Of a stretch of 59,245 nucleotides of DNA, positions 50,419-53,446 are shown one piece after another. Position 1 is the stretch's first letter. Each line of letters opens with the position of its first letter. The translations under genes and the position numbers were made by a program. A model generated the notes under the pieces. It saw only the letters and a list, made by a program, of their open reading frames with translations. It made no database searches and was not told where the DNA came from. The DNA comes from an uncultured Pelagibacteraceae bacterium (GTDB lineage Bacteria > Pseudomonadota > Alphaproteobacteria > Pelagibacterales > Pelagibacteraceae), in assembly GCA_902561075.1 (NCBI GenBank), contig CACEOC010000005.1:1-59245 (forward strand), read 5' to 3'.

Positions 50419-51843
50419 TTATTCAGTAACATAGACAGAAACACCGCGATTATTAATGTCTACATCAAATTTTTTATGCAATGGAGGAAAGGCCCTTTGA
50501 GAACAATCTAATCTGTCACAAGTTCTACAAGACACACCTATTGGTATTTCTGTTTTTTTATCGTTTAGATCTAAGTTTTCCGTATATACAAAGTCTTTAG
50601 CGTATTTAGCCTGACAACCTAATCCAATAGATAGAATACTTTTCTTTTTCCCATATCTTCCTACTCCTTTCTCAACTGTTCTTGCTATACAAACATATTT
50701 TTCACCATTACTCATTTTACTCACAGCAGCTTGTATAACTCCTGGTCTTGAAAAAGCAGAATAAACATTCCAACGCGGACATGCTCCGCCATATCTTGGG
50801 ATTTCGATTCCTGATAAAGAAAAACGTTTAGATATATTTCCTGCAACATCCACTCTCAAAAAATGAAATGGTATTCCTGGAAGTTTCGGATCTTGTAAAC
50901 AAGTAACTCTGTGAGCTATTTGTTCAAAAGTACACGCAAAAGTATTTTGTAATAACTCTAGATCATATTTTTGTTTTATACACTCTTTATGAAATAATTT
51001 ATATGGCATCAAAATTGCAGCACCACAATAATTTAATAGAGCTACTTTTGTGAGTTTTTTTGATTCCTCAGATGGAAATTTAAATTGTGATAAATATTTT
51101 TCTATTATAGTCATAGCGCCTTCTTGTGCAATTTGTGCTGATGCGTATAATTTTTTTGTTTCTAACGCAACATAATCACTTAAATGTAATTCTTTTTGAC
51201 TTTTAAGATATTTTTTTGAAAAAGGCTTGTCATCCTCAGGTAACAAATCTATTACTTTTACACCATACTCTGTTTTGAGAAAATCACATAAAGCCATATA
51301 GGTTGCTCTGTTATTAATTTGAATTCTGTTAAATATTTCTTCAGCAAACTTCTCTAAATTTGCAAAATAATTTTTATTTTCTTGTAGAAAATCTGATACA
51401 ACTTCTCCTGGAAATGATGCTTTCCTTCCATCTATAATTTTGCCCGAAATATTTTCTACCTTGCTAACAATTTCTTGTCCTTTTTGTTTATAATTATCTC
51501 CTAATTTTATTAAAGCACGAGCAATTTTAGGATTAGTATTAACTAGGTCATTAACTTCTGGACCTAAAATATCTAAATCTTCAAATAGTTCATCTCCCAA
51601 TAATTCAGATAGATTGCTAATAAGGCTTAATTCTGATTTATTTGTTAAATCTGACAATTCTATTTTTAACTCTTCACAAACTTTTAAAAGTAGATCGCCA
51701 TCAATTTTTCTTTTTCCATTCTCAATTAGATTTAAATAACTAGGTGATATCCCTAATCGATCAGATAATTTATTTGCTTGAATGCCTAGCTGTCTCCTAA
51801 AAGCCTTTATTTTTGGACCAATTTTTAAATCAATTTGACTCAT
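50419..51843 (-). CDS. ScfR/RamB-type regulator (XRE HTH + ImmA/IrrE-like + Cys-rich C terminus)
   Basis: Transcription factor of 474 residues. It has an N-terminal helix-turn-helix (about 10-65, with SDRLGISPSYLNLIENGKR), a central ImmA/IrrE-like domain with FEQIAHRVTCLQ, and a C-terminal domain ending in CRTCDRLDCSQRAFPP. This layout is that of the short-chain fatty acyl / RamB regulators that control acetate and glyoxylate metabolism. Here it is divergent from the isocitrate lyase gene, the classic RamB target. Seven TTTGTAAA-like sites lie directly upstream of its own start, consistent with autoregulation. Confidence 0.88.
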   Translation of the reverse strand: MSQIDLKIGPKIKAFRRQLGIQANKLSDRLGISPSYLNLIENGKRKIDGDLLLKVCEELKIELSDLTNKSELSLISNLSELLGDELFEDLDILGPEVNDLVNTNPKIARALIKLGDNYKQKGQEIVSKVENISGKIIDGRKASFPGEVVSDFLQENKNYFANLEKFAEEIFNRIQINNRATYMALCDFLKTEYGVKVIDLLPEDDKPFSKKYLKSQKELHLSDYVALETKKLYASAQIAQEGAMTIIEKYLSQFKFPSEESKKLTKVALLNYCGAAILMPYKLFHKECIKQKYDLELLQNTFACTFEQIAHRVTCLQDPKLPGIPFHFLRVDVAGNISKRFSLSGIEIPRYGGACPRWNVYSAFSRPGVIQAAVSKMSNGEKYVCIARTVEKGVGRYGKKKSILSIGLGCQAKYAKDFVYTENLDLNDKKTEIPIGVSCRTCDRLDCSQRAFPPLHKKFDVDINNRGVSVYVTE

Positions 51844-51852
51844 TATTTACTA

Positions 51853-51956
51853 TTTGTAAATTTTGTAAATATAAATTTACAATTAATTTTATTATTTTAC
51901 AAGGTTTTTAAATATTTTTATGGCTTTTGTAAATATTGTAAATTATAAAGTTTACA
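51853..51956. promoter_or_regulatory. Operator-like array of TTTGTAAA sites between scfR-type gene and aceA
   Basis: Seven copies or near-copies of TTTGTAAA / TTTACAA occur in 104 bases. Forward copies are at 51853-51860, 51862-51869, 51926-51933 and 51935-51942 (ATTGTAAA). Inverse copies are at 51876-51882, 51896-51902 and 51951-51956. Both forward pairs are spaced by exactly 9 bases and each is followed by an inverse copy. RamB of Corynebacterium is reported to bind a related TTTGCAAA-type element. These are likely binding sites of the divergent regulator, acting on its own gene and on aceA. Confidence 0.65.
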
Positions 51957-52120
51957 TGAACAACGAAATCAGTAAAAAAACTCAAGAAAATCAGGCACAA
52001 AATAGCCACCAAGACACTAACGATAAAAGAAATAAGTCAGGAATTTATTTGAGGGACGATCACTGCGATTGGGGTTCTAGTGGTATGAATGAGTTTACTA
52101 ACGAGTATAACTCTAACTAA
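51956..52120 (+). CDS. Small ORF upstream of isocitrate lyase, unrecognised
   Basis: A 54-codon ORF (MNNEISKKTQENQAQ at the start) ends 48 bases before aceA. The frame is open from an ATG at 51920, but that start lies among the operator repeats and would add 12 residues. The product is hydrophilic with a single Cys in YLRDDHCDWGSSGM. Twenty-two of its 54 codons end in G or C, against 9 of the first 54 codons of aceA, which is unusual here. It could encode a small protein or mark a structured leader RNA. No convincing ribosome-binding site precedes it. Confidence 0.4.
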   Translation: MNNEISKKTQENQAQNSHQDTNDKRNKSGIYLRDDHCDWGSSGMNEFTNEYNSN

Positions 52121-52168
52121 TCGAAACATATCACTTTCTAAATTAAACATTTAAATTGAGGGGTTTAA

Positions 52169-53446
52169 ATGAGTTCTGAAAAAAAAGTTTCATATGATTT
52201 AAAAAGGTTTGCAGGTATTAAAAGAGATTATACACCGGAAGAAGTTGAACGATTGAGAGGTTCAATAAAAATTCAATATTCAATGTGTGAACAACAATCC
52301 AAAAAACTATGGAATTTGTTAAATACAGAGCCATATGTCAATACATTAGGTTCTTTATCCGGAAATCATTCTGTTCAACATGCTAAAGCTGGATTAAAAG
52401 CAATTTATGTAAGCGGATGGCAGGTAGCTGCAGATGCTAACACAGCTGGAGAAATGTACCCAGATCAATCTTTATATCCTTTTGATAGTGCACCAAAACT
52501 TGTTGATAGCATTAACAATGCGTTAGTAAGAGCTGATCAAATTCAACATATGGAAATAAAAGATGGAGATATGAACTCAAAAGATAGAACAGATTATATG
52601 CTACCAATAATTGCCGACGGAGAAGCTGGATTTGGTGGTCCTTTAAATGTGTTTGAGTTGACAAAAAAATTTATTAAAGCAGGAGCTGCAGGTGTGCATT
52701 TTGAAGATCAATTAGCTAGTGAAAAAAAATGCGGACATATGGGAGGAAAAGTTTTAGTACCAACAGGGACTGCAGTAAGAAATTTAAAAGCGGCAAGATT
52801 AGCTGCAGATATAGCTGATGTACCTCTTATAATATTAGCTAGAACCGATGCAAATGCTGCAAAATTAATTACAAATGATCATGACGAAAATGATAAACCT
52901 TTTTTAACAGGAGAAAGATCACCAGAGGGTTTTTATTATGTAAAAGCAGGAATAGATCAAGCTATTTCTAGAGGAATAGCTTACGCGCCTTATGCGGATT
53001 TAATTTGGTGTGAAACAGCAACTCCTAACTTAGAGGAGGCAAAAAAATTTGCAGATGCTGTGCATGCAAAATTTCCTGGTAAATTATTAGCTTACAATTG
53101 TTCACCCTCTTTTAATTGGAAAAAACATTTATCAGACGATGAAATTGCAACTTTTCAAAAAAAAATTGGAGAGATGGGATACAAATTTCAATTTATAACT
53201 TTAGCAGGATTTCACACTCAAAATATTGCAATATTTGAACTTGCGGAGAAATATAAAAAAGATGGTATGGCCGCATATTCTAAAATTCAACAACAAGAGT
53301 TTGATAGAGAAAAAGATGGATATACAAGTGTAAAACACCAAAGAGAAGTTGGAACTTCATACTTTGATGCTGTGTCAAACACTATAAGTGGTGGAAAAAG
53401 CTCAACTACAGCCATGGAAGGTTCTACAGAATCTGAGCAGTTTTAA
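52169..53446 (+). CDS. aceA: Isocitrate lyase
   Basis: Splits isocitrate to glyoxylate and succinate, the first step of the glyoxylate shunt. The 425 residues have the catalytic [10 protein letters not shown] (Cys188), [18 protein letters not shown], and the ARTDANAA and NCSPSFNW segments. GAGGGG seven bases before the ATG serves as a ribosome-binding site. It is preceded by a small ORF and an operator array of the divergent ScfR/RamB-type regulator. Its TAA shares bases with the opposing stop (TTAA). Confidence 0.97.

Follow-up and report, generated by a model that had tools for sequence, protein, structure and literature searches.

A SAR11 microprotein encoded beside the isocitrate lyase gene shares its conserved core with viral proteins

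In the window, a 59,245-nt stretch of a contig from an uncultured Pelagibacteraceae bacterium (CACEOC010000005.1), a small open reading frame (ORF) lies between a divergently transcribed regulator gene and aceA, which encodes isocitrate lyase (Table 1). The first ATG of this frame in the ORF list is at 51920, and the conserved start is that at 51956; the extent of the small ORF and its 48-base distance to aceA, both given in an initial annotation of the same DNA, are borne out on the sequence. SAR11 is a dominant marine heterotroph, and the glyoxylate shunt bears on whether carbon is respired or kept. AceK, the usual regulator of this branch point, was found in none of 61 genomes of the genus (0/61, with a positive E. 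coli control).

Table 1. Features of the regulator–aceA region, in window coordinates
Feature	Position	Strand	Evidence or remark
Divergent ScfR/RamB-type regulator	50419..51843	-	PF09856, HTH_3, IrrE-like domain; divergent upstream in 136/138 loci
Operator-like direct repeat TTTGTAAATATTGTAAAT	51926..51943 (second copy 51853-51870)	+	Repeat search; putative operator
TATAAA, -10-like	51944..51949	+	Six more bases, then A of ATG; predicted leaderless start
Small ORF, 54 aa + TAA, MNNEISKKTQENQAQNSHQDTNDKRNKSGIYLRDDHCDWGSSGMNEFTNEYNSN	51956..52120	+	Frame kept in SAR11; dN/dS 0.10-0.11; aceA ≤450 bases downstream in 137/138 loci
mRNA 5′ end	51957..51973	+	Predicted pairing with core 52062-52078; 11/13 pairs in window
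Conserved core, 19 codons, GIYLRDDHCDWGSSGMNEF	52040..52096	+	Near-fixed in 81 loci; third bases vary; in 12 viral contigs
Spacer between small ORF and aceA, with SD-like GAGGGG before the aceA ATG	52121..52168	+	Gap survey of 137 loci
aceA, isocitrate lyase	52169..53446	+	NF011645, 725.8 bits (cut-off 562)

The small protein is present in 67 of 101 genomes of the genus (one match, in G081, being weak and containing an internal stop), in 49 of 147 genomes drawn from the family (the weakest, G187, at E = 0.17) and, by profile search, in 111 of 198 genomes drawn from the order, a count from which two weak hits (G136 and G664) among the 113 profile matches at E ≤ 1 are excluded. aceA is found in 113 of the order-draw genomes, and all 111 with the small protein have it. 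Of the two aceA genomes lacking the small protein, the contig of G675 ends inside the gene and retains a remnant of the tail (IKSLDDNN-stop), and in G105 a different small ORF occupies the same slot. A class draw of 386 genomes yielded four SAR11 genomes at E ≤ 1e-6 and 23 other matches at E 0.054 to 1, which we judge to be chance; at 25 loci of weak class-draw matches, a DWG-type string occurs at six, within frames 104 to 562 codons long, and is absent from 19. From a phylum draw of 378 genomes came two SAR11 genomes and one 8-residue match at E 0.012, likewise judged to be chance.

The ORF that fills the slot in G105 (L200, contig 1, 75817-76050) is an unrelated frame of ~78 aa, beginning MTHREKHNIESNCVSYNDD, between regulator and aceA. 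It has matches in 8 of the 147 family genomes at E ≤ 0.01, five of them belonging to one genus (g5); the match in G104 is weak and that in G139 has an internal stop. A relative of this ORF in G109 (L202, 270721-270852) comes after the motif protein.

We compared 138 loci with distinct small-ORF DNA, 81 of which came from similarity searches of genomes and 57 from a scan of genome contigs with a core pattern, which returned the best 80 of 524 relatives. Regulator, small ORF and aceA occur together in 135 of the 138, and at the three loci missing a partner the contig continues on that side for 125, 237 and 149 bases. The gap between the small ORF and aceA ranges from -5 to 203 nt in 137 loci and is 38-57 nt in 104, while an SD-like motif precedes aceA in 111/135. 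Among 31 genomes chosen for the absence of a strong small-ORF match, the regulator was matched in three, two of these matches being partial; the regulator thus tends to vanish along with aceA, so co-occurrence cannot tell aceA from the regulator as the partner of the small protein.

The small protein has ~50 residues and is built of a variable N-terminus rich in Asn, Lys and Gln and a near-invariant 19-residue core. The D, D, W, G and G of the core (DxxDWGxxG) are identical in all 81 loci fetched by similarity; 75 of these have the His-Cys pair (HC), and in all 75 the string RDDHCDWGSSG is intact. The core pattern was also present in 90/90 rechecked loci of the genome search. Among sequences of the genus type the core is identical in 132/132, a count that is partly circular because HCDWG was the criterion for the genus type and a core pattern had retrieved 57 of the 138 loci. 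Third bases within the core nevertheless vary (Tyr codon TAT in 72 and TAC in 60; last Gly codon GGA, GGT, GGG and GGC in 74, 41, 10 and 7). By the NG86 method, dN/dS is 0.022 in the core, 0.136 in the N-terminus, 0.217 in the tail and 0.108 over all (83 sequences, 221 pairs >80% identical); with the similarity-fetched loci alone, the corresponding values are 0.037, 0.097, 0.315 and 0.103 (49 sequences, 135 pairs). The initial annotation had offered a small protein and a structured RNA as options, naming the synonymous/non-synonymous ratio across SAR11 as a check and the loss of both protein frame and RNA structure in relatives as grounds for giving them up. The overall ratio of 0.10-0.11 and the conservation of frame, core and location across SAR11 strongly support the first option. 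Together with the near-fixed core, this ratio is what would be expected of a conserved small protein of the enzyme-regulator class.

In other SAR11 genera, the core takes forms such as GLYVREDDQDWGSAG, and at six loci that are not of the genus type (L055, L056, L058, L061, L203 and L204) Asp-Gln or Asn-Gln replaces His-Cys, as in the phages described below. A metal or redox role of the His-Cys pair was dropped, since Asp/Asn-Gln stands there in other SAR11 genera and in phages.

Database searches with the small protein of the window gave no match at E ≤ 1 in Pfam or NCBIfam, the CP12 and IF7 families included, and no family in PHROGs (0), while a search of the PDB with the core gave four matches that we judge to be chance. 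A short ORF with no family match might be functionless and have arisen by chance, but conservation, dN/dS and co-occurrence with aceA refute this reading, and we give it practically no weight. Judged by these comparisons, the 54-codon ORF is a protein-coding gene in its own right in SAR11, flanked by aceA and the gene of a divergent ScfR/RamB-type regulator.

The regulator belongs to the ScfR/RamB family, scoring 200.5 bits against PF09856 (cut-off 24) and 48.5 bits against HTH_3 and having an IrrE-like domain; its score against the RamB equivalog of NCBIfam (NF038139) is 374.2 bits, below the cut-off of 700. The TTTGTAAATATTGTAAAT repeat resembles ScfR/RamB boxes (TTTGCAAA), and we take it to be a putative operator. 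Directly behind this repeat and TATAAA comes the ATG of the small ORF, with six bases between TATAAA and ATG. An operator and TATA pattern is found upstream in 130/138 loci and stands at equal spacing to the ATG in 125/138, the starts having been chosen with the aid of the operator; when the nearest ATG upstream of the core is taken instead, the spacing is equal in 122/138. An SD-like motif precedes the small ORF in only 12/138 loci. The usual gap between a -10 box and the start would put the start of transcription at the A of the ATG, and the constant distance of operator and TATA pattern to the ATG thus predicts that the mRNA of the small ORF is leaderless. A link between the glyoxylate shunt and a signal, suggested in the initial annotation, is plausible through the ScfR/RamB-type regulator. 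The Paracoccus RamB of the same family activates glyoxylate genes and binds CoA esters, according to the available part of the report (PMC10370305).

The regulator might also be the partner of the peptide, which would then feed back on its own promoter and serve phages as a switch for the host operon. Regulator, small gene and aceA are mostly gained and lost together, and the small gene is the first in its unit, in keeping with such a role. However, a ligand-type domain is already present in the regulator itself, its Paracoccus relative responds to CoA esters in the same partial source (PMC10370305), and no result here connects the peptide with the regulator; we consider a regulator partner quite unlikely.

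The codon usage of the small ORF had also been singled out at the outset, with 22 of its 54 codons ending in G or C versus 9 of the first 54 in aceA, and our recount gives the same figures. None of 291 blocks of 54 codons from the 49 ORFs of at least 150 codons in the window reaches 22 (mean 9.9, sd 3.0), and relative to the same amino acids encoded with the codon usage of the window, the small ORF has z = 3.6. The bias is genuine and common to orthologues: across 57 related loci, which are not independent, the mean z is 2.05 (range -0.62 to 3.62). The share of NNY codons ending in C is 0.40 in the 138 small ORFs, compared with 0.18 in the long ORFs of the window and 0.19, 0.21 and 0.20 in the ribosomal-protein clusters of three genomes. 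Within the small ORFs, it is 0.47 in the N-terminal region, 0.25 in the core and 0.55 in the tail. High expression was rejected as the source of the bias, as the ribosomal-protein clusters reach only 0.19-0.21.

As an example of RNA structure that might underlie this bias, a hairpin between ATCACT and AGTGGT had been proposed. AGTGGT does lie at 52079-52084, while ATCACT sits at 52059-52064 instead of the 52049-52054 first given. The hairpin itself is rejected, since its outer pair forms in 15/61 sequences and both sides change in just 2/366 cells. Its positions are paired in 77.9% versus 76.4% in shuffled controls (reached by 0/500 shuffles, with the covariation score reached by 4/500), a small excess that can be explained by the relatedness of the sequences. 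RNAalifold predicted five pairs in the ORF, none with a compensatory change, and four folds in the window were near chance relative to shuffles (z of -0.35, -0.16, -0.69 and -0.96). Rfam gave 0 matches at gathering scores in the window, that is, no known structured RNA or riboswitch. Neither a conserved RNA structure nor a fixed spacing to the next gene, by which leader-peptide attenuation would be recognized, was observed.

A different pairing, between the 5′ end of the message and the core, has moderate support as a second constraint on the ORF. For 66 small ORFs <90% alike, compared position by position without alignment, the mRNAs are predicted to be more stable than their own synonymous-codon permutations (mean z -1.06, with 52% below -1), the controls giving a mean z of -0.13 (36 aceA starts) and -0.11 (120 blocks from the window). 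This gain in stability comes largely from bases 2-18 of the message pairing with the core, for which the mean probability is ~0.25 versus ~0.02 in permutations (n = 66) and exceeds 0.3 in 20/66 sequences; the full pairing is found in 11/66 rows and is not kept in the six non-genus rows. The share of C at codons 2, 3 and 5 is 0.86, 0.80 and 0.78, with a partner that is mostly G, and at codon 6, where the partner is mostly A, it is 0.18 (132 sequences). A Fisher test of third base versus partner in 60 thinned sequences, whose rows are related, gives p = 3e-10. Both sides of the duplex are on average 1.6-2.3 kcal/mol better than synonymous replacements, and the duplex energy beats all 2000 swaps with n = 60 and all but 3 of 2000 with n = 32, while 108 and 123 of 2000 partner swaps do as well in pair score. 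No clear compensatory changes are seen among the compared small ORFs, and codons 7, 8 and 9 have raised C (0.65, 0.59 and 0.44) with no pairing partner. The pairing would not account for the codon bias of the tail. Of the structured-RNA option, then, the named hairpin fell, and what stands at moderate support is this other pairing.

Near the end of the ORF, we also observe a hairpin (TTCACT...AGTGAA; e.g., in L012, L016 and L031) that is commoner than in permutations. It differs between sequences, and we do not claim it as a conserved element.

These RNA results bear on another possibility, in which the ORF serves as a leader peptide or as a cis-acting RNA and regulates aceA by way of translation or attenuation. 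The ORF is upstream of aceA on the same strand, its RNA is more structured than synonymous controls and would pair its 5′ end with the core, and another small ORF fills the slot in G105. Nevertheless, the constraint on the protein far exceeds that on the RNA, the spacer to aceA ranges from -5 to 203 nt, Rfam has no match and the window folds are near chance, aceA mostly has an SD-like site of its own (111/135), and in phages the core is found apart from aceA. On balance, we regard a leader function as unlikely.

The phage copies of the 19-residue core are carried by 12 IMG/VR viral contigs, where it scores 41-48 bits against a profile to which several of these phage cores themselves belong; as controls, other frames of the viral loci score ≤14 bits and one bacterial 8-residue match (L319) scores 18.7. 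Six of the viral cores are located within the first ~25 residues of a protein of the AdoMet-decarboxylase family (PF02675, AdoMet_dc, matched in 6/6), and the other six are in separate small frames. Four of the latter encode one identical protein, perhaps of a single virus, and the start of the small frame at L311 is ambiguous. Among the 80 SpeD loci listed, the core is present in these six and absent from the other 74. The two SpeD-type carriers tested match phrog_3125, and neighbours of the viral cores match SNF2/helicase, HSP20 and PD-(D/E)XK proteins, with a small terminase below its cut-off. aceA was not recognized in the stretches of viral contig that were read. Relatives of the core-bearing SpeD occur in cultured pelagiphages, such as HTVC103P and HTVC109P. 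No core was found in the four cultured pelagiphage stretches scanned; the window protein had no match in cultured phages, nor a composite query in cultured phages and plasmids, and a phage small ORF used as query gave three Mycobacterium phage matches at E 9-10 that we judge to be chance. We infer that the 12 contigs are SAR11 phages. As both they and the six SAR11 loci outside the genus type have Asp-Gln or Asn-Gln in place of His-Cys, their sequences hint that such genera are the hosts. In a model of the phage SpeD, the enzyme domain is well built (block pLDDT 78-91), whereas residues 1-29, which bear the motif, form a tail of low confidence (35-42); with the tail in only 4/38 alignment rows, this indication is weak.

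Further likenesses involve other parts of the phage enzyme. The C-terminal part (~residues 157-214) of the phage SpeD-like protein at L199 2992-3645 resembles separate small SAR11 frames, mostly of 67-92 aa, as well as phrog_32989. In G627 and G638 (L286 and L287), which belong to another family of the order, SpeD shares 52% and 50% identity with the enzyme domain of the phage protein, and the similarity starts at phage residue 30, behind the motif tail. One pelagiphage SpeD, that of HTVC201P, has been shown to be an arginine decarboxylase (PMC9992855, from the portion available).

The core is evidently portable, being internal in the SAR11 protein, N-terminal on the phage SpeD and part of other small phage ORFs. 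It could thus be a general SAR11 tag or degron delivering its carrier to a protease, an adaptor or another hub, and a function of this generality would enable a phage decarboxylase to wear it. More SAR11 carriers would then be expected, whereas one strong match is listed per positive genome, with few weak seconds, and a general tag appears distinctly improbable to us.

The reading we favour, tentatively and with somewhat less than even confidence, is that the peptide binds a glyoxylate-branch protein (isocitrate lyase being the most likely one) and tunes this branch, that its core was copied by phages, and that it is co-made from a transcript starting at its ATG, with a weaker RNA layer. We read the protein as a binding peptide, given its short fixed core in an otherwise loose chain, its almost all-or-none association with aceA and its copies in phages; the genetic linkage makes isocitrate lyase the most likely partner. 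The divergent ScfR/RamB-type regulator would control a promoter whose transcript begins at the ATG of the small gene, so that peptide and isocitrate lyase would be made together. The core, presumably without a fold of its own, would dock on its glyoxylate-branch partner and adjust the activity or assembly of that protein. Phages, probably of SAR11, would carry the core in small proteins or as the tail of an AdoMet-decarboxylase-family protein, and it would either interfere with the host partner or bring the phage enzyme to it; a connection between the SpeD tail and the glyoxylate shunt is not obvious. In the RNA layer, the 5′ end of the message, including the start codon, would pair with codons of the core; some of the unusual codon usage near the beginning of the gene would then follow from this pairing. 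An AlphaFold model of a read-through of the small ORF and aceA was set aside as too poor (mean pLDDT 39); since no model of isocitrate lyase itself emerged from it, it decides nothing on docking. The fuller version of the favoured reading, a SAR11 peptide switch in place of AceK, with a leaderless message that folds back on its start codon and a 19-residue docking code captured by SAR11 phages, by itself or as the tail of a polyamine-type enzyme, to redirect carbon during infection, seems to us unlikely.

In HTCC1062, aceA is SAR11_1240 and a transcription regulator is SAR11_1242 in the accessible text of PMC2864753, so that the small gene is probably the annotated SAR11_1241. The open-access literature searched names SAR11_1241 nowhere, although it may be in print elsewhere, and contains no account of a SAR11 isocitrate lyase with a small protein, its function or a phage link; a term search of the main text of PMC2704228 found no mention of aceA. 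Our assessment is of a genuine, SAR11-specific microprotein: its functional class has precedents elsewhere, its connection to phages was not expected, and it may also have an RNA layer. This suggests a so far undescribed protein switch, of which viruses may be copiers, and a conserved peptide at the isocitrate lyase gene that phages also carry offers a concrete small target.

Several known systems share parts of this arrangement. The glycine riboswitch and structured RNAs of Ca. Pelagibacter ubique are likewise cases of post-transcriptional control of SAR11 carbon genes, as far as the available sections of PMC2864753 describe them, but the window has no Rfam match. In pelagiphages, AdoMetDC/SpeD homologues resemble the core-bearing phage proteins, all six of which match PF02675 and have relatives in cultured pelagiphages, whereas the core is absent from the four cultured pelagiphage stretches scanned. 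In Paracoccus denitrificans, RamB/ScfR is also a regulator divergent to glyoxylate genes, with paired binding boxes and with AceK absent too, but there the regulator faces the malate synthase gene and then icl, instead of a small gene and aceA as in SAR11 (PMC10370305, in the part available). A functional parallel in kind is cyanobacterial: CP12, IF7/IF17 and AcnSP are likewise small proteins, of 44-149 aa, whose binding to central enzymes controls, or is proposed to control, enzyme activity, according to the accessible text of PMC7760959. They differ in belonging to another lineage and in having no sequence relation that we could find to the SAR11 protein (no Pfam match), for which enzyme binding is a proposal. 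Cyanophages reportedly carry CP12. If the favoured reading is true, the cyanobacterial principle of small regulators would extend to SAR11 and its viruses.
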